From Candidatus Eiseniibacteriota bacterium (GTDB taxonomy: Bacteria > Eisenbacteria > RBG-16-71-46 > SZUA-252): a DNA stretch of 61,582 nt. The notes beneath the pieces are model-generated. The model saw nothing but the letters and a program-made list of their open reading frames with translations. It searched no databases and was not told the origin of the DNA. This document shows positions 38,491-61,459 of the stretch, piece by piece. The position numbers were made by a program, and so were the translations under genes. The number at the start of each line of letters is the position of its first letter. Positions within the stretch are counted from its first letter, which is position 1. The DNA lies in the NCBI GenBank assembly GCA_003235575.1, contig QJVW01000079.1:89525-151106 (forward strand). Direction: 5' to 3'.

Positions 38491-39474
38491 CTACTTCGCG
38501 ATCGAGAGCTTCCCGCGCACGATCCCTTCCGAAGTCTCCACCCGGTAGAAGTACACCCCCGACGAGAGAGGCTCGCCGTGCTGCCCCCGGCCGTCGATCG
38601 AGACGGAATGGGAGCCGGACGGCAGGACCTGCCGCTCGAGAAGCGTCCGGACGAGACGGCCGTTCACGTCGAACATCCGCACGGCGACGGGTCCGGACCT
38701 CGAGGTTCGGAACGAGAGCATGCCGGCGGGATTGAGCGGGTTCGGTGCAACGGACGCTACGAGAGTGGGGCGTTGCGGTCCGCCGATCGTCTCGGCGGAA
38801 GTCAGCGCCGCGTCGGCGAAGAGGATATTGTCGTAGAACACCCCGGAAGGCTCGAAATTCGTCGCGGTGTTCGCGAAACCGATTTGCAGGATCTGACCGG
38901 CGAGGCCGGCGTCGATGACGATGGAGATCGAATATCGCTCCCACGTGGTGGAAATGGTGGTCATGTCGAGCGTCAGGAAGTTGGTCAGCGCGTACCCGGC
39001 GCCTGGATCGAGCGTCTTGATGAACGCAATGGCCGTCGTGGCCCCGGCCAGCAATCCGCGCTTGGCGTCGAACTCGAACGTCCATGTACTGCCGACATTG
39101 GCGGCGCCGACCGTCCACTCCCGGAATACGTTCGCCTCGACCAGGTTCCCGGCGGTGTGCTCCGCCACGTTGTTGTAGTCGCTGTAGACGCTCAACTGGT
39201 GCGCGCCCTGGGAAAGCCCACCCTGGGCGGAGTCGATCGCGCAGAATGCCGCGCCGTCGTTCGGGGCGGGGAACGGTCCATAGCCGTAGAGGTAGGTGCC
39301 TATCGGGGAGGAGACATTGCCAAAGACGAGCCACCCGGCAGCGGCCAAGGCGCCGGTGTCCGACTTCACCAGTCCCTCGAAGTTCTGAACGTAGCCCGAC
39401 AGGTCCGCTCGGCCCGGCGTGGGCGCCAGGTAGAGGATGGCGGCGGCGAGGACTGTGGCGACGCGACGTAGCAT
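38491..39474 (-). CDS. Secreted jelly-roll-like protein with FlgD-type sorting domain (paralog 1)
   Basis: 327 aa, GGAAGGAA directly before the ATG. A signal peptide ends at GRADLS (about 24). Residues about 25-230 form a beta-rich domain with FEGL, GWLVFGNV, YGYGPFPAPN, TWTFEFDAKRG, TAIAFIKTLDP and VFYDNILF, shared with the 39721 gene, and resemble a carbohydrate-binding jelly roll (a CBM4/9-like look). No catalytic motif was seen. The last ~85 residues are a FlgD-like Ig sorting domain (NGRLVRTLLE, then SSGVYFYRVET). Its promoter carries operator A. Probable role: binding beta-glucan at or outside the surface; the ligand is inferred from the regulon. Confidence 0.85.
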   Translation of the reverse strand: MLRRVATVLAAAILYLAPTPGRADLSGYVQNFEGLVKSDTGALAAAGWLVFGNVSSPIGTYLYGYGPFPAPNDGAAFCAIDSAQGGLSQGAHQLSVYSDYNNVAEHTAGNLVEANVFREWTVGAANVGSTWTFEFDAKRGLLAGATTAIAFIKTLDPGAGYALTNFLTLDMTTISTTWERYSISIVIDAGLAGQILQIGFANTATNFEPSGVFYDNILFADAALTSAETIGGPQRPTLVASVAPNPLNPAGMLSFRTSRSGPVAVRMFDVNGRLVRTLLERQVLPSGSHSVSIDGRGQHGEPLSSGVYFYRVETSEGIVRGKLSIAK

Positions 39475-39583
39475 TTCCTTCCCCCTTCGCTCGAAAGAGC
39501 CTTGCGATCCCTGGCAACCGGGGAGCCTGCCTCGGCAGGGCGCCGCGCTCTCGAGCGCCGCGGTTCCGGGGCTCCTTTCCCGT

Positions 39584-39615
39584 AGGATACACTATGTTCG
39601 ATAAAACAACAAAGG
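39584..39615 (-). promoter_or_regulatory. Operator A with promoter for the 38491 gene
   Basis: Minus-strand promoter: -35 TTGTTG (39607-39612), a 17-base spacer, -10 TATCCT (39584-39589). The inverted repeat CCTTTGTT-N9-AACATAGT (39591-39615 read on the minus strand) fills the spacer and overlaps the -35. It matches operators B, C and D. Confidence 0.75.
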
Positions 39616-39625
39616 CCAAAACGCG

Positions 39626-39668
39626 AAAAAAATGCGAGGCCCCGGAGCTTGCGCTTCCAGGGCCTCGC
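39626..39668 (-). terminator. Intrinsic terminator of the 39721 gene
   Basis: On the minus strand a 9-bp stem GCGAGGCCC/GGGCCTCGC, with an inner GGAAGC/GCTCC stem, is followed by ATTTTTTT. It lies about 50 bases past the stop codon. This is the clearest rho-independent terminator in the window and it also insulates operator A. Confidence 0.85.
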
Positions 39669-39720
39669 GCCTCGACGTGGACCTCCCGGCTCCGCGGGAG
39701 CGTCCCTGCAACAAACTACC

Positions 39721-40992
39721 CTACTTCAAGATAGAGAACTGTCCCTTCGCGACGCCCTCGGGCGTCTCGACTCGGTAGAAGTAGACGCCGGACGGGAGGC
39801 TCGCACCGCTCCGGTCACGACCATCGAACGAGACTTCATGCGTCCCCGCCGGGACCACCTGCTTCTCGAGCAGCGTCCGGACGAGGCGGCCGTTGAGATC
39901 GAACATCCGCACGGCGACCGGACCCGAGGTCGCGGTCCGGAAGGACAGGACTCCCGCCGGGTTGAGCGGATTCGGTGAAATCGACGCCGCCGGGCTGCCC
40001 ATCGGGGGATCGATGACGGTGATCGCATCGCTGCCGCTGAACGTCTCGCCCGACACCAGGGCGCCGGTGATCGTCAGGTTGTTGACCCCCGGCGTGAGCA
40101 GCGGGTCGAGGTCGCTGCGGCTGAACTTCACCATCAGATCCGGCACGTCGTTCAGATTGTGGTCTCCGATGACGGCGAACTTGCTGCTGGGGACGATCGA
40201 TCCGGCCAGGCGCAGGGACGTGGGATCGACGCTCCCGATATCGAAACCGTCCATCTCGAGGTAGACCGTGACGAGTGGGGCATGGCTGTCGAGGTTGATG
40301 ACGTTCGGATCGATGTTCACGGTCGGCGCCAGCGCACGGAAGTCGACGTTGTCGTAAAGCATTCCGGACGGCTGATACCCCGTGGTGGTGCTTGCGAAGC
40401 CGTACTGCACGATCTGTCCCACGAGGCCAGCGTCGATGTGGAGCGAGATCGCGTAGCGGTTCCACGTATCCGGGATGGACGTCATGTCGACCGGGAGGAA
40501 GTTGGTCGTTGCGTATCCAGCCGCCGGATTCAGGGTCTTGATGAACGCGATCGCGGTGGACGAGCCGGCCAGGTCTCCGTGCTTCGCGTCGAACTGGAAG
40601 AACCACGTGCTTCCGACGTCTCCCGCGCCGACGACACTCTCCCTGAAGACGTTCGCCTCGATGAAGAAGCCGATGCCGTGATCTGTATTGTTGTAGTCGT
40701 TGTAGACGACGATCTGCTGCGCGCCCTGATCCGGTCCGCCCTCGCCCGCGGCGACACTGCAGAATCCGGGCGTGCCGTTGGGCGCGGGGAACACGCCGTA
40801 GCCGTACGCGTAGCCCCACCCGGGATCAAAGACATTGCCGAAGACGAGCCAGCCGTCGCCCCCTAGGGCGCCGGAATCCGCCTGGTTCAGCCCCTCGAAA
40901 TCCTGGTTATAGGGCGATAGATCCGCTCGCCCTACCCCGGGCGTGAGCACTAGAAAGGCCGCGATAAGGACGATCGTTACTCGAGCTAGCAT
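39721..40992 (-). CDS. Secreted jelly-roll-like protein with FlgD-type sorting domain (paralog 2)
   Basis: 423 aa from the ATG at 40992 (AGGGGAG 7 bases upstream; the longer ORF crosses operator B). A signal peptide ends at GRADLS. The N-terminal domain (about 25-225) is clearly paralogous to the 38491 product (FEGL, GWLVFGNV, YGYGVFPAPNG, TWFFQFDAKHG, TAIAFIKTLNP, MLYDNVDF). It has an extra Ig-like domain (about 230-335) before the C-terminal FlgD sorting domain (NGRLVRTLLEKQV, SGVYFYRVET). No enzyme motif. Operator B controls it. The tandem paralogs suggest duplication within the locus. Confidence 0.86.
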   Translation of the reverse strand: MLARVTIVLIAAFLVLTPGVGRADLSPYNQDFEGLNQADSGALGGDGWLVFGNVFDPGWGYAYGYGVFPAPNGTPGFCSVAAGEGGPDQGAQQIVVYNDYNNTDHGIGFFIEANVFRESVVGAGDVGSTWFFQFDAKHGDLAGSSTAIAFIKTLNPAAGYATTNFLPVDMTSIPDTWNRYAISLHIDAGLVGQIVQYGFASTTTGYQPSGMLYDNVDFRALAPTVNIDPNVINLDSHAPLVTVYLEMDGFDIGSVDPTSLRLAGSIVPSSKFAVIGDHNLNDVPDLMVKFSRSDLDPLLTPGVNNLTITGALVSGETFSGSDAITVIDPPMGSPAASISPNPLNPAGVLSFRTATSGPVAVRMFDLNGRLVRTLLEKQVVPAGTHEVSFDGRDRSGASLPSGVYFYRVETPEGVAKGQFSILK

Positions 40993-41092: not shown

Positions 41093-41124
41093 AGGGTACA
41101 CTATGTTCGCTAAGAAAACAAAGT
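41093..41124 (-). promoter_or_regulatory. Operator B with promoter for the 39721 gene
   Basis: Minus-strand promoter: -35 TTGTTT (41116-41121), a 17-base spacer, -10 TACCCT (41093-41098). The inverted repeat ACTTTGTT-N9-AACATAGT (41100-41124) covers the spacer and overlaps the -35. Predicted start of transcription is about 90 bases before the ATG. Confidence 0.77.
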
Positions 41125-41179: not shown

Positions 41180-44100
41180 CTACCCCTCGGCATTCGTCAT
41201 CGTCCGTTCCGGCGTCGGTTCCATCCGCACGAGGACCCGATCGGGAACGACGACATCGATTCGGGCGATCGTTCCGGTTCGGCGAAATAGCGATCGGCTC
41301 GTTCCGACGTCCAGGCTGCAGCCGGGGTAATGAAGGGAGTTGCCGTCCGACGCCGTGACACGGATGGACGCCTCGCCCTCGCCCAGCGCGTAGACGACGG
41401 GCACCTGGCAAACGGTGAAGGCCAGGGATCCGGCGGGGAGCTCGATCGTCCGGGGCGCTCCGTTCCGCTCGTGGTACCGGAACACGGCGCTCTCGGCCAG
41501 GAATTCGCGCCGGCGCAACAGCGATGGCCGGAAGCTCAAGAGCCCACGCTCCACGGTGACGCCCAGTTCGCCGTGGCGGGCCAGAATCATTTCCTTCACC
41601 TGTCCCGTCATTCCGGGTTGCTTGGCTCCCGCGTGCGCCGGCGTGTGGGAGTAGGGATCGGTTGGAAACGCCCCATACTCCGACACGGTCTTCTCGAATC
41701 CGAATCCGGCGCGGATCCGGAAGTAGGCGGCGGCCAGCGCTTCCCGGATCGGCTTCGGCTGCGCTTCGCGTGCGGCCCTCAACGAGAGCTCCTGGACCGC
41801 GAGGAGGAGCTTCGCGACCATGTGCCAGTAGATCGAACCCAGGCCCTCGTACGCGTACATGGCGCCGGAACGGCCCGTGTACGCGTGGTGCCCGAACACC
41901 GACTCGAAGAGATCGAGCACTGCCTGCCGGTCCATGCGCACCGCCGCGCTCCAACGGTCCGACCGCGCCAGATGATCCAGAGCCGCGCCTAGATCGACAG
42001 CGTGTCGCAGGTCCCCGTGGAAGCGGTAGACGCCAAGCGCGTCCCTCTCGAGCACCGCCTTCTCTCCCGCGTCCAGCAGGGAACGGAGGAGCGGCACGGC
42101 CATGACTCGTTCCTCGGGAACCCGGTTTCGCTCCCGAAAGCCCGGCAGGGTCTTGACCGGGTAGAGCAGGAAACTCCTCTGGTCGGGACGGTACAGGCGG
42201 CTATCGAAGAGGCTCGAAAGGAGCCGAACCGCCTCGCCGGCGTCCACGGCGCCGGAACCCAGGGCCGCGACCTGGCCCTCGAGCATCTCTTCCAGGTGGC
42301 GCACGTGGGCGTCCTGGCCGTCTCGCGTGATCTGGAGAATGTTGTACGAGTGATAGAGCCCGTCTTCTCTGCGATTCGTGCGGATCGCGTGATCGATGTG
42401 CTCCCCGGCGGATCGACAGAACGCGATGCAATCCGCGACCGGCACGGCCGTGGTCGCGCCGGAGAACCCCCGGAGGTACAGGGCATCGCGGTACTCGGAG
42501 AAGGCGTTTCCCAGCGCATCGAGCATTCGCTTGCGATCGTCGTCGTTCCACGTCTCGGTATCGCGCGGTGGGCGGTGTTCGTGCAGGATGGCCTGGAGCC
42601 GCCGAAGCCAGGTCGCCACTTCCGCCGAGATCGGGGCCGGGGCGGCCGGACGTCCTTCGAGAAGGCGCTCCAGGAAGCGGAGGTAGCGTCGGAGATAGAA
42701 GAGCGTGACCATGGAAACGCCGTTTCCGGCCAGCGCGTTGTTGGCGTCGTTCCACTCGGGACGCTGCGTGTTCATCCAGATGCCGCCGCCCGGCACGAAG
42801 TTGGACATCTTGGAGAGGGCGGGGACGAACAGCTTCTCCAGCAGCGTGACGTGGTGGATCGCTGCGTCCGGGCCGCGGACGAGTCGCCCATCGGTTCCCG
42901 TCGTCGCGACGCGCTCCTCGATCTCCGCCGCCAGATCGGCGTCGTAGACGATGCTGGCCCTCGGATCGGCCACGATTTCCTCGTAGGACTTCAGGCGGTA
43001 GGGAACGTCGGCATAGCAGAACGCCGCCTTGTCGATGAGTCGTTCCAACGTCCCCGGCGAGAACCGCGCCTGCGCCTCCAGCAACCGGAGCAGGTAGACG
43101 ATCTGGTGATCGCCCCAATACCCGATGTGGCTCCAGGGCGCGTCCGGTTCGGGCACTTCCCAATCGATGCCGTCCCGCGTGATGCGATACGGGTTGAAGC
43201 CGTCCACGGTGGATGCGTTGACGAACTTGGCGATGACCCCGGGCAGGAACTCCGGGAAGCTGAAGCAGAGCGCCTCCCAGTTCTGAAAGATGTCGCGCCA
43301 ATTTCCCTCGTAGTGGATCTCGCGTTCACCGTCCGCGTTCTTGCCCCGTATCGCAAACCGGTTCCACGGGCGACTGGGGTCGCCATGGCGGCGGCCGAAT
43401 GTGAGCGGCAGATACTCGTAGCAGAGGCGAAGGATATTCGCGTCCTGCCATCCCTCCGCGGTCCGGAGGAGCTCGGGCGCCGCGATCTCGGCGGGCAGCG
43501 CCCGCAGGGCCGTTCGGTGCCGGGAGGCGGCGGCACGGTTTCGCGTTTCGACGAAGGCGATCAGGTCCGCGGTCGGCACATCGTAGTTCTTCGCGAAGAT
43601 GCCCCCGCGCATGTTGTTGAACAAGACGCTGGCAAAGTGATGCGCCGCCGCCTCGGGGTGGCCGGTCCGCTGCAGGCCGTCCGCGCTGCCGACGATTCGA
43701 ACCAGGTTCTCGCTTGCCGCGGCGAGGCTCGCCTCCAGGCGCCTCCCGAGATCTCCCTCTTCCAGCAGCCGGGCCTGGAGCGCCGCTACGTGTACGTGGC
43801 TTTGTCCGACGTCGGCGACGATCTGCCACGTGGCCTCCGCGCCCGGGCACAGTTCGAGCGAGGACGCTACGAGGTAGTTGCCCCGGCGGCCGGTGAGGAC
43901 GACGTCCGCGCACGGCGTATCGCCGGAGCGGAACGCGTTCACCGCGTCGAGGGAAAGCGAAATCGTGGCCGTCTCGAGTCCACGGCTCCACACGGTCGTC
44001 GCGCGGAGCTCCTCGGCGGCCTCCGCCCGATCGGTGATCTTCGCCGTGAGCGAGAAGATCCCCAGCCGCGTCGCCGGGTCGACCTCGGCGCGCTTGTAGG

Positions 44101-44749
44101 CGTCCACCAGACAGCTCGCCTGCTGTTGCAGAAGCAAGGGGGCGCCGTGAGGCAGGATGTTTCGCAAGCCGTCGAGCAGGGCGACCGTGGCGGCTCCCGC
44201 TCCAAGATTTTCGAGCGACGCGGTGCGGACGATTCCAAACTCATCGCATCCGGACCACCGGTATCGGAAGCGCAGTCCCAGATCGTGGCGGATCTCCTCG
44301 AAGAGGAGGCGACTCCCCACGATGTTCTTGTAGAGATTGCGCTCGACGAACGAGGCCTCCGCGGGATGCTCCGCGAAGGGCTCCCAGAGCAGAGACGGAC
44401 CGTCCGCGCGTCGGACCCGGAGCAAGGTGATCGGCCCGGTGTGGTGGTGTCCGTCGTGCAGCTTGTCAACGGTCTCGTAGGGGAAGAGCGCGCCGTCCGG
44501 GTCCCGCCGCCCCGCGGTCAACCCGCCACCCGATGTGACGAACATCCAGATATCGGTGTCGCTCGCGAGGCTCATCAGGAAGGGGTGGAGACGGTGGAAG
44601 GCGGAAATCCGGTAATACGCCTCTCCATCCAGTTCGACGAAGGCGCCGGCGGGGGACGCGGGGTCCGCGCCCGGCGACGCCTTCGGCGCCCGCGTGTCTC
44701 TGTCCGCGCCGGATGTTGGTGTGAGGGAGGGGTCCATCGTTCCGATCAC
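41180..44749 (-). CDS. Large GH94-clan glycoside phosphorylase (GH161/GH149-like candidate)
   Basis: 1189 aa, GTG start overlapping the GH17 stop by 4 bases; an ATG 12 bases later is the alternative. The N-terminal beta-sandwich begins YYRISAFHRLHPFLMSLASD and the (alpha/alpha)6 barrel carries NWRDIFQNWEAL and the presumed catalytic Asp in RPEWNDANNALAGNG (about 666), comparable to the GH94 DWND motif. The protein is far longer than cellobiose phosphorylase (about 800 aa). Length and its position beside GH16 and GH17 fit the beta-1,3-glucan phosphorylases of GH161 or GH149. It would release glucose-1-phosphate from oligosaccharides in the cytosol; no signal peptide was seen. Family assignment needs a profile search. 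Confidence 0.8.
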   Translation of the reverse strand: MIGTMDPSLTPTSGADRDTRAPKASPGADPASPAGAFVELDGEAYYRISAFHRLHPFLMSLASDTDIWMFVTSGGGLTAGRRDPDGALFPYETVDKLHDGHHHTGPITLLRVRRADGPSLLWEPFAEHPAEASFVERNLYKNIVGSRLLFEEIRHDLGLRFRYRWSGCDEFGIVRTASLENLGAGAATVALLDGLRNILPHGAPLLLQQQASCLVDAYKRAEVDPATRLGIFSLTAKITDRAEAAEELRATTVWSRGLETATISLSLDAVNAFRSGDTPCADVVLTGRRGNYLVASSLELCPGAEATWQIVADVGQSHVHVAALQARLLEEGDLGRRLEASLAAASENLVRIVGSADGLQRTGHPEAAAHHFASVLFNNMRGGIFAKNYDVPTADLIAFVETRNRAAASRHRTALRALPAEIAAPELLRTAEGWQDANILRLCYEYLPLTFGRRHGDPSRPWNRFAIRGKNADGEREIHYEGNWRDIFQNWEALCFSFPEFLPGVIAKFVNASTVDGFNPYRITRDGIDWEVPEPDAPWSHIGYWGDHQIVYLLRLLEAQARFSPGTLERLIDKAAFCYADVPYRLKSYEEIVADPRASIVYDADLAAEIEERVATTGTDGRLVRGPDAAIHHVTLLEKLFVPALSKMSNFVPGGGIWMNTQRPEWNDANNALAGNGVSMVTLFYLRRYLRFLERLLEGRPAAPAPISAEVATWLRRLQAILHEHRPPRDTETWNDDDRKRMLDALGNAFSEYRDALYLRGFSGATTAVPVADCIAFCRSAGEHIDHAIRTNRREDGLYHSYNILQITRDGQDAHVRHLEEMLEGQVAALGSGAVDAGEAVRLLSSLFDSRLYRPDQRSFLLYPVKTLPGFRERNRVPEERVMAVPLLRSLLDAGEKAVLERDALGVYRFHGDLRHAVDLGAALDHLARSDRWSAAVRMDRQAVLDLFESVFGHHAYTGRSGAMYAYEGLGSIYWHMVAKLLLAVQELSLRAAREAQPKPIREALAAAYFRIRAGFGFEKTVSEYGAFPTDPYSHTPAHAGAKQPGMTGQVKEMILARHGELGVTVERGLLSFRPSLLRRREFLAESAVFRYHERNGAPRTIELPAGSLAFTVCQVPVVYALGEGEASIRVTASDGNSLHYPGCSLDVGTSRSLFRRTGTIARIDVVVPDRVLVRMEPTPERTMTNAEG

Positions 44750-45825
44750 CCGTGGTTCCGGATCACGCGCTTGGGAGTTCGATCCGCGCGGAAGAAGCCC
44801 CAGTGCTTCTCCGCGTCGCCCGAATCGGAGCTTCCCTTCCAGTTTTCATCGAAGGCCTCGAAGAAGAACGTGACGACCCGCTCGCGCCGGGCCCACGCCG
44901 CGAAGGCGGTGCAGAACGCCTCCTGCGCTTCCTCGTCGGCCGGCGCCTTCATGAGTTCGCCCTGCTCGCCCGAGGAGAGTCGTTCGGTCGCCCAACCCGT
45001 CTCGCCGATCACGACCACCCGCCCGGGGTGCAGCGCCCGGACGTCGGCGTAGGTCTTCGCGGTCCAGTCGGGCGCATCCTGGACCGACACGCCATTCCAG
45101 AGCGGATGCATGTGGGTCATGATGAAATCGATCTCCCGCGCGAGCGCGCGGCTCGCCGGCTTGTTCCAGAAGTTGTAGTCGTCCGCCGTGGTTACCGGCA
45201 CGGAAGTGCGGGCGCGCAGTTCCCGAACGTACTGGATGAGAACGGGCGCCGCGACGCGATGCGAGGACCAGAAGATCTGCGTCTCGTTCCCGACACTCAG
45301 GCCGCTCACGATGTCCGGGTACGTGGCGGCCAGGCGGACGGCCGATTCGACTTCCGCTCGATTGGCGGCGGCCGCTTCGGGGCGGGGCGTGACGACGTTG
45401 CCGGCCGAATCCCGCACGGCCTCGGCGTCGATCCAGACGCCAAGCAGTACGCGGAGCGGCATCTGATTCGCGTGAATCACCTGCAGGATGCTGTCCGCCG
45501 GGCCGGTGGCTTGATAGATCCGGATCAGGCTCCAATGGCGCCGCATCAGCTCCAGATCCTCGCGGATTTCATGCTTGGTGGGGGACGGGCCGCCGGGGCG
45601 CTGGCCGTCCCGATGCGGTCCGTAGGCGATCGCCTCTCCAATCCAGGAACCGTCCCCTTGCGGCCGGAAGGGGCGCGTCACGAACGGATCCTCGCGCGTG
45701 TAGCCGCGTGCCGTCGTCCCGTCGCGCGGCGCGTCGATGTTCGCCGCGCCGTCGGCGTGGGCGCAGGCGGCGCCAAGAGCGAGGAGAAGGGGAAGGCCGC
45801 GGCGGCAAGCCGCACGGAGCGTCAT
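44746..45825 (-). CDS. GH17 family beta-1,3-glucanase-like protein, exported
   Basis: 359 aa from the ATG at 45825; an ATG at 45858 would add 11 residues. A signal peptide ends near LGAACAHADG. The (beta/alpha)8 barrel has the acid/base Glu in SVGNETQ (about 181) and the nucleophile in VIGETGWAT (about 275), the GH17 pattern, plus FFFEAFDENWKG near the end. Bacterial GH17 enzymes cut or transglycosylate beta-1,3-glucan. It overlaps the phosphorylase (GTGA) and starts 43 bases after GH16, in one minus-strand operon. Confidence 0.87.
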   Translation of the reverse strand: MTLRAACRRGLPLLLALGAACAHADGAANIDAPRDGTTARGYTREDPFVTRPFRPQGDGSWIGEAIAYGPHRDGQRPGGPSPTKHEIREDLELMRRHWSLIRIYQATGPADSILQVIHANQMPLRVLLGVWIDAEAVRDSAGNVVTPRPEAAAANRAEVESAVRLAATYPDIVSGLSVGNETQIFWSSHRVAAPVLIQYVRELRARTSVPVTTADDYNFWNKPASRALAREIDFIMTHMHPLWNGVSVQDAPDWTAKTYADVRALHPGRVVVIGETGWATERLSSGEQGELMKAPADEEAQEAFCTAFAAWARRERVVTFFFEAFDENWKGSSDSGDAEKHWGFFRADRTPKRVIRNHG

Positions 45826-45868: not shown

Positions 45869-47524
45869 CTACCGAACCAGCACCATGCGCCTCGTCTCGA
45901 CGGCGCCGTTCAAGCGAAAGCGGGAAAGATAGACCCCGGCGGCGACGCGCCGGCCCGAGTCGTCCCGGCCATCCCAAACGACTTCATGATTTCCGGCCGG
46001 GATCGCATCGTCGAGCAGCGAGCGCACGAGTCTTCCGGAAACATCGAAGACCATGATCTGCATGCGGCCGGCCCGCGGCGCGGCGTAGCGAATCGTCGTG
46101 CTTGCCTGGAAGGGGTTTGGCCGGGGCGCGCCCAGCAGCGGCCTCGGAGCGTCGAGCGGCGTGGCCGCGCTGACGACGCAGGGCGTCCCGGGGCAAGCCG
46201 GGACGAACGTGAAGGCGTCGAACACCACTTCCTGGCTCGTAGCGGGCGGTCCCGTGACCTGCCAGAAGTTGAGATGCACGCGAGGCCTGTCGGGCCGCGG
46301 CACGTGCGGTCCCGCGTAGGTCCACGCGTGAATCATGTTCGCCGCGGATTCGGCGCCGGGTCCGCCCCGCCAGCTGCGGTACTCCACGCGATCGGGTAGC
46401 CATCGGAACGCGTGCGTGGCGACCTCGTCGTCGGCGAAGGTCGCATCGAAGCGGTTGATGTTCCCGGGCCAGTCGAACGGCTGGGCGACGAATTGCGCCA
46501 CGGCGTTTCCCGGATCGCCCCAGCGGCTGAACTCCACGTCGATCTCATTGAACGGGTTCCACCACAGGAAGCCCGGATCCCAGCAGGCGCCGTATTCCCA
46601 GAGAAAGAGTCCGAGAACGGTATTCGGATCCAGGGTGTCCAGCCGCCCGCGCGTCGTGAAGCGGTAGTCGCCGTACCCGAGCGCTTCCTCCAGCGTCACC
46701 TCGGTGCTGTTCCAGGCGCCGCTGATTTGCCGGATGGTCAGGTGGAGCCGGCCGTCGAGGTCGACCCAGACGGAGTTCGTGGCATCGCTGAAGAAACTGG
46801 GGCCGGGGTCGTAGAAGCCCGGGCCCTTCACGCGCCACGTTCGGCCGCTGAAGTCGATGGTCCGTCCCCCGGGGAAGTCGAACCACTGACGATCGGCAAG
46901 TGTCGGAGGTCCGAGGTTTTCGAACGTGGCGTGGTCGTACAGCACGTCGGGCGTCGGGTCGGTGGGGCTCTGCAGGGCGCCAAGCAGAAACCGCGCCTTG
47001 ACCGTCCCGACCGGCGCGGCCTGGCTCTGAAAGGACATCGCCGTGAACTGGTCGGTCGGCGTGGCGGCGTCCGCCGCCACGTGGGATTCGTAGGAGATCA
47101 GGCCGCCGCCACCATCCCGCCACTCGATGTTCACGATCGCCTGAGACTGGCCCACCAGGGGCCTCGACGCGGGATGGGACACCCAGACCGCCGCGGACCA
47201 GCGTTCTCCGGGCGCCGAGTCGAATTCCTGCCAGTACCCGGAAACGTCCCAGGTTCCCGTATTTGGGCCGCTGACGCGCGCCGACCTGGCTCCGTGAATC
47301 GCCGTGGTCGAGGAGCCGACGGCGCCGAACTGATACCAGCCTCCGAAGACCGCGCCGGAAGACCCCGAAATCTCGAAGCTGGGGTTGGCGAGCAGGCACT
47401 GGGCGGCCGTATCCCGGGCGGGGGCGATGAGGGGTAGGGCGAGGGCGATGAGGACGCACCGTCCGAGGCGCCGCCCTGCCGCGCCGAAGACCCCCGCACG
47501 CACGTCGATAGAGGCTGCAGTCAT
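45869..47524 (-). CDS. GH16 family beta-glucanase with N-terminal binding domain and FlgD sorting tail
   Basis: 551 aa from the ATG at 47524; the track's start at 47587 lies on the promoter -10. A signal peptide ends about APARDTAAQ. Residues about 40-190 form a CBM4/9-like jelly roll (LLANPSFEISGSSG, WYQFG). The GH16-type domain (about 200-440) has the catalytic NEIDVEFSRWG (ExDxE, about 327-331). The C-terminus is a FlgD-like Ig sorting domain (SGRLVRSLLDDAIP, VAAGVYLSRFR). Such enzymes cleave beta-1,3/1,4-glucans outside the cell. It is the first gene of the GH16-GH17-phosphorylase operon, read from operator C. Confidence 0.88.
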   Translation of the reverse strand: MTAASIDVRAGVFGAAGRRLGRCVLIALALPLIAPARDTAAQCLLANPSFEISGSSGAVFGGWYQFGAVGSSTTAIHGARSARVSGPNTGTWDVSGYWQEFDSAPGERWSAAVWVSHPASRPLVGQSQAIVNIEWRDGGGGLISYESHVAADAATPTDQFTAMSFQSQAAPVGTVKARFLLGALQSPTDPTPDVLYDHATFENLGPPTLADRQWFDFPGGRTIDFSGRTWRVKGPGFYDPGPSFFSDATNSVWVDLDGRLHLTIRQISGAWNSTEVTLEEALGYGDYRFTTRGRLDTLDPNTVLGLFLWEYGACWDPGFLWWNPFNEIDVEFSRWGDPGNAVAQFVAQPFDWPGNINRFDATFADDEVATHAFRWLPDRVEYRSWRGGPGAESAANMIHAWTYAGPHVPRPDRPRVHLNFWQVTGPPATSQEVVFDAFTFVPACPGTPCVVSAATPLDAPRPLLGAPRPNPFQASTTIRYAAPRAGRMQIMVFDVSGRLVRSLLDDAIPAGNHEVVWDGRDDSGRRVAAGVYLSRFRLNGAVETRRMVLVR

Positions 47525-47569
47525 CGTCTTTCCCGTAAGGTAGGATCGCGCCCAAGACCATTCGACCAC

Positions 47570-47618
47570 TTGACAACGATACGGCAAGGATACACTATGT
47601 TCGGAAAGGAAACAAAGT
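47570..47618. promoter_or_regulatory. Operator C with divergent promoters
   Basis: Minus strand: -35 TTGTTT (47610-47615), 17 bases, -10 TATCCT (47587-47592), reading to the GH16 operon. Plus strand: -35 TTGACA (47570-47575), 17 bases, -10 CACTAT (47593-47598), reading to the ATPase-GH1-GH/barrel operon. The inverted repeat ACTATGTT-N9-AACAAAGT (47594-47618) fills the minus spacer and covers the plus -10, so one bound repressor could close both. Confidence 0.78.
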
Positions 47619-47640: not shown

Positions 47641-48651
47641 GTGCCGGAGACCGTAGACACCGTGCGCCCGCCCCTCATGGAGGTGCGGGGCATTCGCAAG
47701 ACGTTCGTATCGCGGGGGCTCTTCGGACCGGCCAAGCGGACGGTGGCGGCCGAGGACGTCTCGTTCCGAATCCGCCGCGGCGAATCGATCGCGCTGGTGG
47801 GGGAATCCGGAAGCGGCAAGAGCACCCTGGCGCGATTGGTGCTGCGCCTCGAGCGGCCGGACTCCGGTGCGATCCGTCTGGATGGCGAGGACATGTTGGT
47901 GCGCGAGCCGCGGCGCATCTCGCTCGCGTACCGGGGCCGCGTTCAGATGGTCTTCCAGGATCCCTTCAGTTCACTGAACTCCGTCCACACAGTCGAGCAT
48001 CACCTCGTGCGCCCCCTCCTGCGTCACCGCCGCGTCGCCCCCGGCGATGCGCATGCCCGGGCGGGGGAACTGCTTCGGACCGTCGGACTCGAACCGCCGG
48101 AGGAGTTCCTCCGGCGCCATCCGTACGAACTCTCCGGGGGGCAGCGCCAACGCGTCGCGATCGCCCGCGCCCTGGCCGTGGAGCCCGACCTTCTCGTCGC
48201 CGACGAGCCCACGTCGATGCTCGACGTCTCCATCCGGATGGGCGTGCTCAACCTCCTCGCCGCCTTGAAGCGGGAGCGCCGCCTCGCCATTCTCCTCATC
48301 ACGCACGACCTCGCCTCCGCCCGCTACCTGGCGGACCGGCTTCTCGTTCTCTACCGTGGTCGCGTCGTGGAGGACGGGCCGGCAGGCACCGTCGTCGAAT
48401 CCCCCGCGCACCCCTACACGCGCGCGCTGATCGATTCGATCGCCGGCGCCGGGCGATCCGAGCCGTTGGCGCGCCGCGCGCCGGACGCCGGGACGACCGC
48501 GGCGGATCGGGGATGCCCCTTCGCGTCGCGCTGTCCCGAGGTGCGCGATCGCTGCCTCGCGATCGATCCCGCGCCACGCCTCGTCGAGGGACGCAGGGTG
48601 CGCTGCCATCTCTACCCCGAAACCGCCGCGGAGCAGGAGCGGGAAGCCTGA
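47641..48651 (+). CDS. Oligopeptide/oligosaccharide ABC transporter ATPase (DppF/OppF type)
   Basis: 336 aa, GTG start with AAGGAG about 7 bases upstream. Walker A VGESGSGKST, signature LSGGQRQR, Walker B LLVADEPTSMLD and H-loop LLITHDLA. The C-terminal CPFASRCPEVRDRC cluster is typical of Opp/Dpp ATPases. It should pair with the second ATPase at 53250 and the two permeases at 54202-56123, although it lies in the divergent operon. Family-5 Dpp-type importers in Thermotoga and others take beta-gluco-oligosaccharides, which fits here. Confidence 0.92.
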   Translation: MPETVDTVRPPLMEVRGIRKTFVSRGLFGPAKRTVAAEDVSFRIRRGESIALVGESGSGKSTLARLVLRLERPDSGAIRLDGEDMLVREPRRISLAYRGRVQMVFQDPFSSLNSVHTVEHHLVRPLLRHRRVAPGDAHARAGELLRTVGLEPPEEFLRRHPYELSGGQRQRVAIARALAVEPDLLVADEPTSMLDVSIRMGVLNLLAALKRERRLAILLITHDLASARYLADRLLVLYRGRVVEDGPAGTVVESPAHPYTRALIDSIAGAGRSEPLARRAPDAGTTAADRGCPFASRCPEVRDRCLAIDPAPRLVEGRRVRCHLYPETAAEQEREA

Positions 48652-50042
48652 TGTCTCGCCACTCCCTGCCCGAAGGATTCCTCTGGGGCGTCGCGACATC
48701 CGCCTTCCAGATCGAGGGGGGCGCGCACGAGGACGGACGCGGCGAATCGATTTGGGATCGCTTCGCCGCGACGCCAGGTCGCATCGCGGACGGCTCGAAC
48801 GCCGTCGTGGCGTGCGATCACTACCATCGCTGGAGGGAGGACATCGAGCTGATGCGATGGCTCGGCGTGGGCGCCTATCGATTCTCGATCGCGTGGCCGA
48901 GGATCCTGCCACGCGGTCGAGGCCGCATCAATCCCGCCGGCCTGGACTGGTACGACGCGCTCGTGGATACGCTGCTGGAGGCCGGTATCCTTCCGTTCGT
49001 GACGCTGTATCACTGGGATCTGCCGCAGGAGCTCCAAGACGCCGGCGGGTGGGGCGTCCGCGAGACGGCGGACGCTTTCGTCGCGTATGCCGACGCGGTG
49101 AGCCGGCGGCTAGGCGATCGCGTTCGCCATTGGACGACCCACAACGAACCATGGTGTGTCGCGTTTCAGGGGCACGAAGTGGGGGCCCAAGCGCCCGGCC
49201 ACAGAGACCCGGCGGAGTCGCTGCGCGCGGCGCACCACGTCCTGCTGTCCCACGGCGGCGCCGTGGAGGTGCTGCGACGGAATAGCCCGGGAGCGGAGGT
49301 CGGCATCGTGTTGATCCTCGCGCCGGTCTCACCGGCCACGGAAAGCGCCGCGGATCGCGATGCGGCCCGCCAAGCGGACGGCTCCCTGAACCGCTGGTAC
49401 CTGGACCCCCTGTTTCGGGGCCGCTACCCGGAGGACGCGATCGAGGACCGGGTCCGCCTGGGACACGCGCAAGGACCGGCCCTACCCTTCGTTCGCGACG
49501 GAGACCTCCGCACGATCGCCACGCCGATCGATTTTCTCGGCGTCAATTACTACAGCCGCAACGTGGTCCGCGCCGCGCCCTCGGGCGCTCCGACGGTCGA
49601 CCCGCCGGCTCCGGAACGCGAACGCACCGACATGGGATGGGAGGTCTACCCGCGGGGGCTCTACGACACGCTCGTGCGCGTGACGCGCGACTACGCGCCC
49701 GCCAAGATCTACGTTACGGAAAACGGCGCCGCCTACACCGACGCCGCCGACGCCGAAGGCCGCATCGCCGACCAGCGCCGGATCGACTATCTGGATGCCC
49801 ACATCGCCCAGGCCGGCCGGGCGATCGCCGACGGCGTTCCCCTCGCGGGCTACTTTGCATGGTCCCTGCTCGACAACTTCGAATGGGCGCACGGGTACGC
49901 GAAGCGATTTGGACTCTTCGAGGTCGATTTTGAGACGCAACGACGCCGTCCGAGGGACAGCGCCCATTGGTACCGTCAGGTCGTCGCCCCGAATTCGGCG
50001 CGCGACGCCGAACCGCAACCCCTGCTGAGGAGGATGACGTGA
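48651..50042 (+). CDS. GH1 beta-glucosidase
   Basis: 463 aa from the ATG at 48651, which overlaps the ATPase stop by one base (TGATG). The N-terminal GH1 signature FLWGVATSAFQIEGG, acid/base Glu in TTHNEPW (about 167) and nucleophile in VTENGAAY (about 358) are intact. The C-terminus has AWSLLDNFEWAHGYAKRFGLFEVDF. Length is normal (about 450). It hydrolyses beta-glucosides from the non-reducing end. No signal peptide, so it acts in the cytosol on imported oligosaccharides. The GH/barrel gene overlaps it by 4 bases. Confidence 0.96.
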   Translation: MSRHSLPEGFLWGVATSAFQIEGGAHEDGRGESIWDRFAATPGRIADGSNAVVACDHYHRWREDIELMRWLGVGAYRFSIAWPRILPRGRGRINPAGLDWYDALVDTLLEAGILPFVTLYHWDLPQELQDAGGWGVRETADAFVAYADAVSRRLGDRVRHWTTHNEPWCVAFQGHEVGAQAPGHRDPAESLRAAHHVLLSHGGAVEVLRRNSPGAEVGIVLILAPVSPATESAADRDAARQADGSLNRWYLDPLFRGRYPEDAIEDRVRLGHAQGPALPFVRDGDLRTIATPIDFLGVNYYSRNVVRAAPSGAPTVDPPAPERERTDMGWEVYPRGLYDTLVRVTRDYAPAKIYVTENGAAYTDAADAEGRIADQRRIDYLDAHIAQAGRAIADGVPLAGYFAWSLLDNFEWAHGYAKRFGLFEVDFETQRRRPRDSAHWYRQVVAPNSARDAEPQPLLRRMT

Positions 50043-53000: not shown

Positions 53001-53230
53001 ACCGCGACTTCAACCTGACCTTCCCGCTCCAAGTGATGGGGGATCTGTCCTACACGCTGGGTGCGCCGGGGTGGCTCGATCAGGAGCAGACGCGGCTGGG
53101 CGTGCGCGCCACGTGGCGGAACCTCGACCACAACTCTCCGCGGTTCGTGCCGAGCCCGCCGCTCAGCCCGAACGACAGTCCGTACGGTCGCGAATGGGAG
53201 ATCCGGACCTATCTGATCGTGACGCTCTAG
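50039..53230 (+). CDS. Glycoside hydrolase (TIM-barrel, GH2/GH5-like) fused to a predicted outer-membrane beta-barrel
   Basis: 1063 aa from a GTG overlapping the GH1 stop (GTGA), with AGGAGG 6 bases upstream. A signal peptide ends near GAMAEDA (about 35). The N-terminal (beta/alpha)8 domain (about 55-420) has DFMVYGMNWDYIPIG, acid/base LLGNENN (Glu about 189) and nucleophile LLTEFGADAF (about 288), the clan GH-A pattern; the family (GH2, GH5 or a new one) is not clear. The remaining ~600 residues (about 460-1063) lack enzyme motifs and show alternating hydrophobic/polar strands rich in aromatic residues (for example KVAFGPQLWWG, WFLLDGFYRTGHF), ending in EIRTYLIVTL. This resembles a porin-like barrel, so the catalytic domain would be tethered in the outer membrane. 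The barrel assignment is inference. Confidence 0.8.
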   Translation: MSVTLSGLGRPGIGILAATTAVLLALAPAGAMAEDAAAGAGPAIRVVAAESGTSLQVGGRDFMVYGMNWDYIPIGQNYNWSLWSQSDDVIQEALAREMPLLKSMGVNAIRQYAGVPPRWVQYIYERYGIYTVINHTVGRYGFTLQGVWHPTVDYSDPGMRAALKAEVLSLVDEFRGVPGILMWLLGNENNYGLSWASTEIEALPQGERDAARARHLYSLFGEIIHEVKARDTGVPVAMANGDVQYIDIIAQECKELDIFGTNVYRGISARDLFEVVRDKMGIPVLLTEFGADAFNARRFREDQPTQARYLLGQWREIYEQSSGKGKVGNAIGGFVFQWSDGWWKFGQESRLDIHDTNASWPNGGYVEDFVQGQNNMNEEWWGICAKGYPDARGLFDVYPRAAYYALRDAFALPAYAPETTLAAIRAHFARIDPAVAALEARGGEASLVSQTMRRVRLTGLRAKFETYSTGGNFITTPESSAPQEALPRFRGFDRLESFYMDAQVNPAENVTGTLSLNVLGNVPKNPIDEIFYEARDRTPLVPIAGQPPVSDVDRVKVYRASVSWDDPWFLLDGFYRTGHFHWGYEGDFFGLYREANYGPNIDTYNADAPLGFEVSAKRALSGLKVAFGPQLWWGANPSVMVKYRRRIGPFDATAVYQDDLTEQSSVISTIAVPQPPTRKASVAVAFSRGPALFEVGGIWAGGTKVDDVFQVAEKSGSGYDILQDRVRRSDTFGAKAKVTVERGRLRWYAQGAAMGLVADAGPTATVTFTGWNLKDTGSGNQTNFLTGLTYNVGDFQIGPNFLWQKPIVDPMPRGLPSAGPGRPRNILEDPFAVRANRETIGAEVLVTYDPTPATWFWAWDNDVREDARLAGSIGFVMRDLPTTQDASIGILGDGVTQFAFPAAPPARPWSLRRGLWEVNTRLVSRLRPDVRIVAHLFAGNNEPNGDDPATSFGARLVRRYGGDARVAWGRTALAAYAKANDWGPYDYHRDFNLTFPLQVMGDLSYTLGAPGWLDQEQTRLGVRATWRNLDHNSPRFVPSPPLSPNDSPYGREWEIRTYLIVTL

Positions 53231-56132: not shown

Positions 56133-57806
56133 CTAGCGCGGGGTCAATGCCGTGAGAACCAGGAGGCAGTCGCCCCGATCCAGCTTGTTCGGGGACGGAT
56201 CGGCGTACGGGTTCTCCTGGGAGGGGAACCCGCTGAAGCGCGCGACACTGTACTCCGCCCAGGAGGGATTGGGATAAAGCGGGATCGCCGGCGCCTCCTT
56301 GACGAACGTCCGCTGCAATTCGTCGGCAAGGCGCTTTTGCCGCGCTGGATCGGCTTCGAGCTCGAAGGCGTGCAGCGCCTGATCCGCCGCGGGGCTGCCA
56401 TATCGATGCCAGTTTCCCATGGACGCCTCGCCGAGTGGTTTGACCGTCGAGGAGGCCATCAGCCAACGATAGAAGGTGTACGGGGTCGGGCCCTCGAACG
56501 ACCACCCGAGGCTGAGATCGAAGTCGCCGGCCTGCACCCGCTGAAACCAGGCGCTGAAATCATAGGTGCGAACGGAAGCGCGCACACCGACGGCCTCGAG
56601 GCCGCGCGCGATCACCTGCGCGGCGCGCACCCAGTCGGACCAGCCGGCCACGCACAGGATCTCGTAGCGCAACGGCGTCCCGTCCGCCCGGCGGCGCCTG
56701 CCGTCCTCGCCGCGCCGCAGTCCCGCCTCGTCCAGGAGGGCGTTCGCCCGGGCGACGTCAAAGCGAACCCAGTCGCCGGATGCGGCGATGCTGGAGTCGT
56801 GCCACGCGACGTAGGCGTCGCTGAGTCCCGTCGCGTCCGCGGGGCGCGAATACCGATACAGGGCGACATCCACGAGGAGGTCTCGGTCGATCGACATGCT
56901 CACGGCTTGGCGGACGCGAACATCATCGAAGGGGGCGCGCGTGGTGTTGGCGTAGAGAAAGATGCTGCTTCCGGTGAGGGGGAACCAGTAGCGGTGGTTC
57001 TCCGGCTGGCGGCGTACGTAGACGCGCTCGATGGCCGGAACGAAATTGCCGGCCCAGTCCACTTCGTCGTAGACGAGCGCCAGGGTCGCGCGATCATTGC
57101 TGGGATAGGCGGGGAAACGCAGCGCCTCCACCCGCGGCAGTCCCCGCTGCCAGTAGCGCGGGTTCCGTCCCAGCTCATAGACCTGATTCCGGAACACGCG
57201 GACCTCGGTGAACGGGCCCGTCGCGACCGGATTCTCATTGGGGTAGGAGACCGGATCCTCGACGTCCTTCCAGTGATGCTCCGGGACGATCTGCTGCGCG
57301 GCGATTTCGTCGAAGCCGGGGATGAATACCCGCTGGAAGCGAAAGTCGACCGTTCGGTCGTCGACCGTCCGCACGTCGGAGAGGAAACCCCAGACGCCCC
57401 GACGGTCGAGCGCCGGGAAGCGCTGCAGCAGGTTGAAGGTGAAGGCGACGTCCCGCGCCGTGAACGGCCGGCCGTCCGACCAGAGGACGCTGTCGCGCGT
57501 CGTCATCCGGAGCACGCGGTTCGCCTCGCGCCACTCGTGCGCCGTCGCGAGCCATGGCACGTACTCCGCGCGAACGCTGTTGAAGACGAGGAGCGGCTCG
57601 TAGATGCCCGCGAGCGTGGGCCAGCGGGCGGCGGTGGCCGTCGTCAGCGGATTGAAATTTCGAATCCACGAGGCCTGCTGCTCCTGCGAGACGACCAGGA
57701 CGCCCCGCGGCGGGGGAGGTTTCTCTCTCGTGCAGCCGGCTGCGACGGAGGCGAGGAGCAGGATGACGGCGCACGCCGCCGGATGCGAGCGTGCGCGTCG
57801 GCTCAC
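56133..57806 (-). CDS. Family-5 ABC transporter substrate-binding lipoprotein
   Basis: 557 aa from a GTG at 57806 overlapping the GH16 stop by 4 bases; the longer ORF crosses that gene. A lipoprotein signal (VILLLASVAAGC) is followed by a family-5 extracellular solute-binding fold: LAGIYEPLLVFN, LRDSVLWSDGRPFTARDVAFTFN, GTGPF-like VATGPFTEVRV, and VRVRQAVSMSIDRD. Members bind peptides or oligosaccharides. The setting favours beta-gluco-oligosaccharides, as for Thermotoga BglE; that is inference. Confidence 0.92.
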   Translation of the reverse strand: MSRRARSHPAACAVILLLASVAAGCTREKPPPPRGVLVVSQEQQASWIRNFNPLTTATAARWPTLAGIYEPLLVFNSVRAEYVPWLATAHEWREANRVLRMTTRDSVLWSDGRPFTARDVAFTFNLLQRFPALDRRGVWGFLSDVRTVDDRTVDFRFQRVFIPGFDEIAAQQIVPEHHWKDVEDPVSYPNENPVATGPFTEVRVFRNQVYELGRNPRYWQRGLPRVEALRFPAYPSNDRATLALVYDEVDWAGNFVPAIERVYVRRQPENHRYWFPLTGSSIFLYANTTRAPFDDVRVRQAVSMSIDRDLLVDVALYRYSRPADATGLSDAYVAWHDSSIAASGDWVRFDVARANALLDEAGLRRGEDGRRRRADGTPLRYEILCVAGWSDWVRAAQVIARGLEAVGVRASVRTYDFSAWFQRVQAGDFDLSLGWSFEGPTPYTFYRWLMASSTVKPLGEASMGNWHRYGSPAADQALHAFELEADPARQKRLADELQRTFVKEAPAIPLYPNPSWAEYSVARFSGFPSQENPYADPSPNKLDRGDCLLVLTALTPR

Positions 57807-58645
57807 GGAACGGCCGCGTAGGCTCGAACGTAGTCGATCGTCATCGTCTGGGGGAACGACGTGCTGGTCGACGGCCCGCCGACGTAGTTTCCGCCCACCG
57901 CGACGTTGAGAATGACGAAGAAGGGATGATCGAAGACCCACGGCGCCCCCGTGGGGAGGTCGCCACGCTCCACGGTGCGGTAGGCGATCCCGTCCACCGA
58001 CCACGTGATGCTGGAGGAATCCCAGTCGACGGCGAAGACGTGGAACGCTTCGTCGAACGATCCCCGCGCCAGTAGGAACGGGGCGGTGAGCGCGCTCCCC
58101 CCCGAGTAGCCGGGCCCATGAAGGCTACCGTGAACGACACGCGGCTCCTGGCCGCGGTATTCCATGATGTCGATCTCACCGCACGCCGGCCATCCGACCG
58201 AGGCGAAGTTGGAGCCGAGCAGCCAGAACGCGGGCCACAGCCCCTGGCCGGACGGCAGTTTCAACCGCGCCTCGAACCGGCCCCGCGCCTGCTCGAACTT
58301 TCCGCGCGTGTTGATGCGCGCGGACGTATAGGCGCTGCCGAGGTAGTCCTCGCGGCGCGCCACGATCGTGAGATGACCCGCTCCGTCGAGCGATACGTTC
58401 TCGGGACGATCCGTGTCGTATTCCAGTTGGGCGTTTCCCCAATCGGTGCCGATGTCATAGACCCAGTTCATCGAATCGGGCGGCTGGCCGGCCGGTCCGT
58501 CGAATTCATCCTGCCACGTCAGTTGCAGGGGGGGCAGGACGGGCCCCGCGGGTCCTCGGCGGCCGGCGCAGCCGATCGTGGCCAGCAGGATGGCGACGGC
58601 AAGGGCGGCGGCGATGCGCTCCGATCGCGGCGACGCGGGGTTCAT
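57803..58645 (-). CDS. GH16 laminarinase-like lipoprotein
   Basis: 280 aa from the ATG at 58645, overlapping the ROK stop (ATGA). A lipoprotein-like signal (LLATIGCAGRRG) suggests membrane anchoring. The GH16 jelly roll begins LTWQDEFDG and carries the catalytic GEIDIMEYRG (Glu about 156 and 160), with WPAFWLLGSN and HVFAVDWD as supporting motifs. The extra Met in EIDIMEY marks the laminarinase/1,3-1,4-glucanase branch, so beta-1,3-glucan is the best substrate guess. Confidence 0.95.
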   Translation of the reverse strand: MNPASPRSERIAAALAVAILLATIGCAGRRGPAGPVLPPLQLTWQDEFDGPAGQPPDSMNWVYDIGTDWGNAQLEYDTDRPENVSLDGAGHLTIVARREDYLGSAYTSARINTRGKFEQARGRFEARLKLPSGQGLWPAFWLLGSNFASVGWPACGEIDIMEYRGQEPRVVHGSLHGPGYSGGSALTAPFLLARGSFDEAFHVFAVDWDSSSITWSVDGIAYRTVERGDLPTGAPWVFDHPFFVILNVAVGGNYVGGPSTSTSFPQTMTIDYVRAYAAVP

Positions 58646-59919
58646 CGCTTCACTCGTTTTCGGGTCGTCGCCGGGAACAGGCTGGAGTCGGCCAGGGCGG
58701 CCTCCAGGACCATCGTGGCGGCGCCCACGGCCGAGGCTTGCTCGCCCAGCTGGCTCGTCTTGATCTCGCACGCCACGAGGGAACTGATGAGCGTGCGGCG
58801 GCGCACGGTTTCACGCAGGGGCTCCAGCAGGACGTCGCCGAGGCGGGCCAGCCCGCCGCCGAGGATGACCATGGCCGGGTTCATGAGATTGAGGAAGCCC
58901 GCCACGGCGATGCCGAGGTGCTCGGCGGCCTCGCTCACGACGGCCATGGCCAGTGGATCGCCCGCCAAGGCGGCGTCCTCGATCGAGACCAGTGTGAGAT
59001 TCGTGCCGGCCAGGATGCTGGAAGGGTATTCCGCGAGCAGCGTCCGCGCCCGCTCCACCAACTCGGGCGCGCCGACGAGCGTGGCGAGGCAGCCGTTGAG
59101 TCCGCAGATGCAGGGGCGGCCGTGGGGGTCGATCGCCATGTGCCCGATCTCACCCGCGACGCCCGTGGCCCCCCGGTAGATGCGGCCATTGATGACGTGG
59201 CCGAGACCGAGGCCGGTCGCCACCTTGATGTAGGCGAAGTCGTCCACCGCGCGACCGGCGCCCCACCATCGCTCCCCGAGCGCGGCGAGATTCGCGTCGT
59301 TGTCGACCATGACGGGCACGCCGAAGCGCTCCGTCAACGCCCCGAGTCCCAGGGCGCCCTGCCAGTCGGGGAGCACGACCTCGGAAAGTTTGTCGGGCTG
59401 GCGGGGATCGACCGGGCTCGGAACGGCGACGCCGATGCCGACCAGGCGTCGCGGACCCGCGGGCCAGGACGATAGGCATTCGTCGCATAGTTCGGTGATG
59501 AGCGCCCGCGTGCCCACGGGATCGGTTCGAACGGGGTGGCTTCGCTCCTTGGAGGTAAGCACGTGGCCGCGCAGGTCGGTCAGGGCGACCGCGACATGCG
59601 ATGCGCCCATGTCGACGCCGAGAATGGCGAACGCGTCGTCTTGGAATTCAAGGACCACCGGCGGTCTGCCGCCGTTCGACGGCCCCACGCCGACCTCGGC
59701 GATGAGTCCGGTGGGGAAGAGGGCGTCCACGGTTTCCGATACGGTCGAACGGGAAAGACCCGTGCGTCGCGAGATCTCAGCGCGCGATATCCGCTGCTCA
59801 CGCCAGATCAGGCGGAGGTTCGAGTCCACCAGCGGACTGCGGCGAGCCGGAACGCCGCGTCGCGGCACGCGCTTGGCCGTACGCCGCTTCTTGGCTCCCA
59901 TCGCTGACTTCCTAGCCAC
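58642..59919 (-). CDS. ROK family transcriptional regulator
   Basis: 425 aa from a GTG at 59919 (GGAGGG 5 bases upstream); an ATG at 59901 with AGGAAG upstream is equally plausible. An N-terminal basic stretch precedes a winged HTH (about 30-85: ISRAEISRRTGLSRSTVSETVDAL). The ROK sugar-binding domain (about 97-400) has the DMGASHVAVAL phosphate-loop relic, VDNDANLAALGE, and the zinc motif CICGLNGC (about 267-275). ROK repressors such as XylR, NagC and Thermotoga BglR release DNA on binding a sugar. It most likely binds the operators A-D described here. Confidence 0.93.
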   Translation of the reverse strand: MARKSAMGAKKRRTAKRVPRRGVPARRSPLVDSNLRLIWREQRISRAEISRRTGLSRSTVSETVDALFPTGLIAEVGVGPSNGGRPPVVLEFQDDAFAILGVDMGASHVAVALTDLRGHVLTSKERSHPVRTDPVGTRALITELCDECLSSWPAGPRRLVGIGVAVPSPVDPRQPDKLSEVVLPDWQGALGLGALTERFGVPVMVDNDANLAALGERWWGAGRAVDDFAYIKVATGLGLGHVINGRIYRGATGVAGEIGHMAIDPHGRPCICGLNGCLATLVGAPELVERARTLLAEYPSSILAGTNLTLVSIEDAALAGDPLAMAVVSEAAEHLGIAVAGFLNLMNPAMVILGGGLARLGDVLLEPLRETVRRRTLISSLVACEIKTSQLGEQASAVGAATMVLEAALADSSLFPATTRKRVKR

Positions 59920-61398: not shown

Positions 61399-61459
61399 AC
61401 TTTGTTTTGTACCCGAACAATCTAGGGTAGTCGCCGTCCCAAGTCAAGCGGACTTTGTT
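61399..61459 (-). promoter_or_regulatory. Operator D, half-site E and promoter of the lipoprotein-ROK-transporter operon
   Basis: Minus-strand promoter: -35 TTGACT (61442-61447), 17 bases, -10 TAGATT (61419-61424). Inverted repeat D, ACTTTGTT-N9-AACAATCT (61399-61423), overlaps the -10 and the predicted start site. A lone half-site ACTTTGTT (61452-61459) lies just upstream of the -35. The ROK gene is in this operon, so autoregulation is likely. Confidence 0.75.

Follow-up and report, generated by a model that had tools for sequence, protein, structure and literature searches.

A predicted beta-sandwich module on two tandem secreted proteins of a probable laminarin-type locus in Candidatus Eiseniibacteriota: a candidate carbohydrate-binding family

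The stretch of DNA analysed here (the window; 61,582 nucleotides of contig QJVW01000079.1, from a Candidatus Eiseniibacteriota genome, G000, of 2.89 Mb and 95% completeness whose closest named counterparts are Krumholzibacteriia MAGs) carries a set of genes for beta-glucan-degrading enzyme families and, adjoining them, two genes for secreted proteins that share an N-terminal domain. The question raised by this arrangement is what the shared domain does at such a locus. An earlier note, made from the DNA letters alone, had proposed that the two proteins define a new carbohydrate-binding module (CBM) with a link to beta-glucans.

Two paralogs and their shared domain

The two genes and their parts are arranged as follows.

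38491..39474, minus strand: paralog 1, a secreted protein of 327 residues (signal peptide, module, FlgD-Ig/T9SS tail; from reading frame and alignment)
38491..38754, minus strand: FlgD-Ig/T9SS type A sorting tail of paralog 1 (PF13860 30.4 bits, cut-off 27; TIGR04183 30.4 bits, cut-off 23)
38815..39405, minus strand: module copy 1, residues 24-220 (family HMM 312.9 bits; the copy is itself in the alignment)
39721..40992, minus strand: paralog 2, a secreted protein of 423 residues (signal peptide, module, Ig-like-looking middle, tail)
39721..39987, minus strand: FlgD-Ig/T9SS type A sorting tail of paralog 2 (PF13860 31.5 bits, TIGR04183 29.4 bits)
39988..40329, minus strand: middle segment, paralog 2 only (alignment of the paralogs; likeness by eye to the translation of L025:656-2248)
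40336..40923, minus strand: module copy 2, residues 24-219 (family HMM 315.5 bits; the copy is itself in the alignment)

The proteins are 62% identical over residues 1-219 (BLASTP, E = 2e-92) and 60% identical in their tails (BLASTP), each beginning with a Sec-type signal peptide as judged by eye, and the shared N-terminal domain, hereafter the module, spans about 196 residues. With both reading frames found and both tails above the PF13860 and TIGR04183 cut-offs, the description of the pair in the earlier note as FlgD-sorted proteins with a common N-terminal domain is borne out, and the motifs quoted there (GWLVFGNV, YGYG-FPAPN, F-FDAK-G, TAIAFIKTL-P) were all found. The start of paralog 2 was placed at the ATG from which its 423 residues are counted, because a good ribosome-binding site precedes this codon, which also aligns with paralog 1; the mechanical list of reading frames begins at an upstream GTG (41088). 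Between module and tail, paralog 2 carries an additional Ig-like-looking segment of about 110 residues which has no counterpart in paralog 1, and a segment like it is present in one relative (L025). In a tree of the domain the two paralogs are not resolved as sister copies, because paralog 1, the shorter of them, has 64% identity with a protein from a different MAG.

Neither singly nor as a profile of 5, 15 or 34 sequences did the module match Pfam, NCBIfam or PDB sequences, a comparison which for the first two libraries covers the families with models there, CAZy families being included as far as Pfam models them. The search for enzyme families in the same three libraries was equally negative, and none of the 34 module copies matched a SusD or surface glycan-binding protein (SGBP) family, or PF02018 (CBM_4_9), in Pfam. 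PF02018 had no match in the genome itself at E 1e-8, and a profile-profile comparison (hhalign) of the module with local CBM_4_9 sequences gave a probability of 1.8-3%, that is, no relation. Weak Pfam matches to DUF6941 and Tf2-1_C in two of the 34 members (E no better than 9e-4) were judged to be due to chance. The alignment of the 34 copies contains no obvious invariant catalytic acid pair, in agreement with the earlier remark that a catalytic signature is lacking. In the literature searched there was no description of the domain, of a Krumholzibacteriota laminarin locus or of a matching new CBM family.

The surrounding locus and its operator

The other features of the locus that bear on the module are given below.

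39592..39614, no strand assigned: operator upstream of paralog 1 (CTATGTTCG-N5-half site)
41101..41123, no strand assigned: operator upstream of paralog 2
41180..44749, minus strand: GH149-type beta-1,3-oligoglucan phosphorylase, adjoining paralog 2 (PDB 6hq6, 1054 bits)
44746..45825, minus strand: GH17 protein, beta-1,3-glucanase family (PF00332 34 bits, cut-off 28.2)
47595..47617, no strand assigned: third operator, in the divergent region between the gene of the secreted 45869-47569 protein and that of an ABC ATPase (47677-48651)
48651..50042, plus strand: GH1 beta-glucosidase family (PF00232 546 bits)
57803..58645, minus strand: GH16 protein, laminarinase family (PF00722 86 bits)
58642..59901, minus strand: ROK-family regulator, the likely reader of the operator (PF00480 198 bits, and a winged helix)
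61400..61422, no strand assigned: probable fourth operator, weaker, upstream of 59940-61391 (3 mismatches)

Further genes encode a GH2-type TIM barrel protein and an Opp-type ABC importer with its binding protein. Judged by this gene content, which includes a member of the GH149 beta-1,3-oligoglucan phosphorylase family (described in PMC6771811), the locus is a beta-glucan utilisation locus, most likely of laminarin type. The secreted protein encoded at 45869-47569 (566 residues) has a FlgD-Ig tail, the third operator upstream and no further Pfam match; relatives 53-61% identical to it are present in many module loci, and it may be a GH16-type enzyme that has diverged, or else a further binding protein. 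The 1061-residue product of 50045-53230 has a GH2-type TIM barrel match near its N-terminus and a long C-terminal part resembling, by eye, an outer-membrane beta-barrel, and homologs of it occur in eight module loci. The product of 59940-61391, without a Pfam match, has relatives of 44-50% identity near a ROK gene in L025, L062, L091 and L092, and a weak operator upstream in the window. Profile-profile comparison revealed no homology of the module to the secreted locus proteins 45869-47569 and 59940-61391.

The claim that each paralog has its own copy of the locus operator holds, with sites at 39592-39614 and 41101-41123. The operator is a 23-bp site, CTWTGTTCG-N5-(CG)AACAAAG, also given as CTTTGTTCG-N5-CGAACAAAG, of which only three sites with at most two mismatches occur in the 2.89-Mb genome, all at this locus, the chance expectation within the window being 0.05. 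All 17 Krumholzibacteriota-type relatives (loci L003-L005, L020-L029, L060, L062, L091 and L092) have a site at most two mismatches from the consensus, no further than about 300 bp upstream from the module gene and often with its two halves in perfect inverted repeat. At 39592-39614, 41101-41123 and 47595-47617 the operator has a degenerate right half (no CG before AACAAAG), whereas the inverted repeat is near-perfect in the relatives, which suggests a possible shift in recognition by the local regulator. Since a ROK gene lies in the locus and ROK homologs are found in six related segments (tblastn), ROK control is the natural reading, and the regulator encoded at 58642-59901 likely acts via this operator.

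Distribution, architectures and neighbourhoods of the module

Profile searches recovered the module, patchily, in about five phylum-level groups. It was found in 9 of 47 genomes of the own phylum and then in four more distant genomes, in 9 of 291 genomes of the G199 phylum, in 3 of 20 of the G256 phylum and in one of the 399 genomes of the G329 phylum sample, a second genome being found within the family of G329; by gene content the G329 group looks gammaproteobacteria-like. Sequence searches did not recover the domain from plasmids or viral contigs. One protein of G002 contains two module copies. In G019 the module gene is split over two frames (L029 1874-2892; profile positions 2-41 and 44-195) and, to judge from these frames, is either frameshifted or the result of an assembly error.

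The architectures differ between the groups. In two related genomes, and only there, the module is fused to GH16: two tandem modules end a protein of about 1100 residues (G329, L063:8547-11885; G1056, L082:7403-10780), which begins with the GH16 domain and has a galactose-binding-like Exop_C domain in the middle. The catalytic domain of the G329 protein is closest to laminarinases (PDB 3azx, E = 5e-48). The module occurs, as tandem copies on GH16 in L063 and L082, as a discrete, apparently non-catalytic domain appended to a carbohydrate-active enzyme, one of the features that, together with a CBM-type fold and carbohydrate binding, mark a CBM in the CAZy sense. The fusion gene is adjoined by a TonB receptor gene in L063 (Pfam match) and by a gene resembling one in L082, where GH3, an MFS transporter and GH149 (6hq6, 1134 bits) are also near. 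The module proteins of the G199 group are free-standing and end in a PEP-CTERM or dockerin-like tail; their genes mostly follow immediately downstream of GH1, within a locus of the LacI-ABC-GH1 type. Two kinds of tail, FlgD-Ig/T9SS and a short one with the ending WGxIKxLYR, are found on those of the Krumholzibacteriota and G256 groups.

Both paralogs carry C-terminal TIGR04183 matches above the cut-off of 23, as expected of T9SS type A cargo. The T9SS translocon protein SprA scored above cut-off in each of the 11 genomes of this kind that were tested, G000 among them (TIGR04189 387 bits for the best piece, cut-off 200), and in none of 14 control genomes, and it is therefore plausible that the FlgD-Ig/TIGR04183 tail serves this secretion system. 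As regards the short tail, the extreme C-terminus of many proteins that look secreted reads [ST][ST]WG-x-[IV]-K-x-x-[YF]-R. Module proteins with such an ending are those of L004, L020, L021, L027, L062, L091 and L092 (L004 and L020 being variants), and the genomes tied to it are G256, G1441, G1454, G027, G011, G002, G006, G031 and G071. The corresponding DNA pattern followed by a stop codon gave 39 matches in G256 and 52 in G1441, none in G199 or G329, and none with a reversed control. The sites inspected are in-frame C-termini, most of them of proteins with a signal-peptide-like start, and no NCBIfam model matches the tail, which is a candidate for an undescribed sorting or anchoring tag.

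In order to characterise the neighbourhood of the module, 13 proteins of the locus and five unrelated genes of the window were searched by tblastn against 28 module-bearing segments, window proteins being used for the counts since gene calls on the high-GC contigs came from a crude script. At least one of GH1, GH16, GH17 and GH149 was detected in 25 of these segments and each of the five control genes in none of the 28, which are not fully independent, some coming from the same genome (L021/L022, L025/L026) and others being near-identical (L083/L084). By tblastn the remaining three segments (L023, L027 and L061) have none of the beta-glucan genes of the window. In the GH1-linked loci L083-L090 the linkage of the glucan is not fixed by GH1 alone.

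Predicted fold, ligand and biological meaning

Two AlphaFold2 models of the module, each from a five-sequence alignment, were obtained at low-to-moderate confidence (mean pLDDT 64.8 and 66.9, pTM 0.69), and both are beta-sandwiches. For the better one, model 2 (pLDDT 66.9), Foldseek returned CBM16 (E 3e-6, TM up to 0.62 by target), CBM22 (TM 0.64), CBM11 and CBM30 (about 0.5) and CBM4 (1gui, 0.46), the best matches also including CBM28, CBM27 and MAM domains. Model 1 (pLDDT 64.8) belongs to the same fold class with weaker scores, and for both of these models most TM-scores lie at 0.4-0.6. This supports a beta-sandwich of the CBM kind but does not prove membership of a family. No clear match to a known non-carbohydrate fold, the finding that the earlier note named as refuting, emerged from the structure comparison, though the fold class includes domains that do not bind sugars, such as MAM domains and cyclases. 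In the numbering of the 196-residue module, F9, W25, G43, N49, D76, Y77, W154, Q173, G175, F176, D191 and N192 are invariant in the 34-copy alignment, W25, Y77 and W154 offering themselves as candidate aromatic platforms; E10 and D191 are at positions at which related folds have a structural metal site.

The structural neighbours CBM16, CBM22, CBM30 and CBM11 bind ligands ranging from cello- and manno-oligosaccharides to xylan and mixed-linkage glucan, and one phylum-level group ties the module to GH1 and ABC genes, with GH16, GH17 and GH149 homologs not detected there and GH44 near the module in one of its members. Both observations would fit a module that binds a glycan other than beta-1,3-glucan (a cellulose-type or mixed-linkage glucan, or a cell-wall glycan) in a neighbourhood reflecting a broader beta-glucan diet; such a ligand is nevertheless rather improbable in view of the fusion to a laminarinase-type GH16 and of the recurrent GH149 neighbours, a family specific for beta-1,3-oligoglucans. 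An undescribed enzyme, for example a small beta-jelly-roll glycan hydrolase or lyase, might be suspected from the length of about 200 residues, greater than that of most beta-sandwich CBMs, and from the near-invariant polar residues E10, D76, N79, H82, E89 and E95. It is, however, very unlikely, as only D76 and D191 are strictly invariant acids, E10 (conserved in 33 of 34 copies), E89 and E95 being replaced in some copies, as the tandem copies are accessory on a protein already having a GH16 catalytic domain, and as no enzyme family matches by sequence. Least probable of all is a structural or protein-binding MAM-like surface domain that scaffolds or tethers glucanases without contacting sugar, which the meprin and Limulus astacin MAM domains among the structural neighbours and the anchoring-type tails of free-standing copies might suggest, but against which stand the invariant aromatics, the co-regulation with catabolic genes and the repeated association with beta-glucan genes in phyla whose anchors and transporters differ.

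The GH16 fusion, the co-located GH genes, the operator, the predicted fold and the lack of any Pfam, NCBIfam or PDB family all support the original proposal of a new CBM with a beta-glucan link. The best explanation, to which a probability of about 0.78 is assigned, is that the module represents a previously unmodelled beta-sandwich CBM family which would grip beta-1,3-glucan (laminarin-type) or mixed-linkage beta-glucan, and which here appears as free-standing proteins, probably T9SS-sorted and ROK-controlled; specificity for beta-1,3-glucan is likely. The signal peptides would carry the two free-standing module proteins across the inner membrane, after which the FlgD-Ig/TIGR04183 tail would probably serve for their export, and for anchoring or release, through the type IX secretion system. 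At the surface they may hold the polymer near the secreted GH16 and GH17 glucanases of the locus, the resulting oligosaccharides entering through the Opp-type ABC importer to be cleaved by two enzymes, the GH149 phosphorylase and the GH1 beta-glucosidase, while the ROK-family repressor would control the module genes through the CTTTGTTCG-N5-CGAACAAAG operator.

New CBM families are described regularly, and the module shares with CBM families 4, 11, 16, 22 and 30 a predicted jelly-roll fold (the best Foldseek matches), an accessory role to beta-glucan enzymes and invariant tryptophans. Unlike these, it has no sequence relation detectable in Pfam and PDB profiles, and its about 196 residues include a long conserved N-terminal half (YGYG-FPAPN, DYNN-DH). 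The C-terminal Uk-C region of Vibrio vulnificus GH17 is likewise a predicted beta-sandwich on a beta-1,3-glucanase, binds laminarin and barley glucan and belonged to no CAZy family when described (PMC9026390). It differs from the module, as compared by description, in that its sandwich has about 153 residues and its tryptophans (472, 499 and 542) are spaced differently (PMC9026390), and identity of the two was set aside on these reported features; close relatives of Uk-C are, moreover, widespread in Vibrio, whereas the module is found in one of 399 genomes of the G329 phylum sample. The proposed role, non-catalytic surface capture inside a glycan-utilisation locus, resembles that of the SusD/SusE-type surface glycan-binding proteins of Bacteroidota, but the module has no SusD or SGBP match, the proteins carry a FlgD-Ig/T9SS tail instead of a lipoprotein signal, and transport is of the Opp-type ABC kind.

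Laminarin and related beta-1,3-glucans constitute a large carbon flow in nature. Tentatively, and at somewhat less than even odds, the long conserved N-terminal half of this new CBM family may form a binding site unlike those of known families, the module being a portable glucan-capture head for which at least five means of anchoring or fusion exist (T9SS tail, PEP-CTERM, dockerin-like, WGxIKxLYR and GH16 fusion) and which in Krumholzibacteriota would take the part of a surface receptor of the SusD kind, paired with T9SS and ABC import in place of a SusC-type channel. The family is of note in that it extends over little-studied phyla, comes with anchors that are exchangeable and would be used as a surface protein in free-standing form. 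Being absent from Pfam and NCBIfam and present in several such phyla, it may help to recognise beta-glucan loci that lack SusC/SusD markers, and a new affinity reagent for this class of glucans might be derived from it. The free-standing form with its anchoring tail points to a strategy of surface capture in bacteria other than Bacteroidota.
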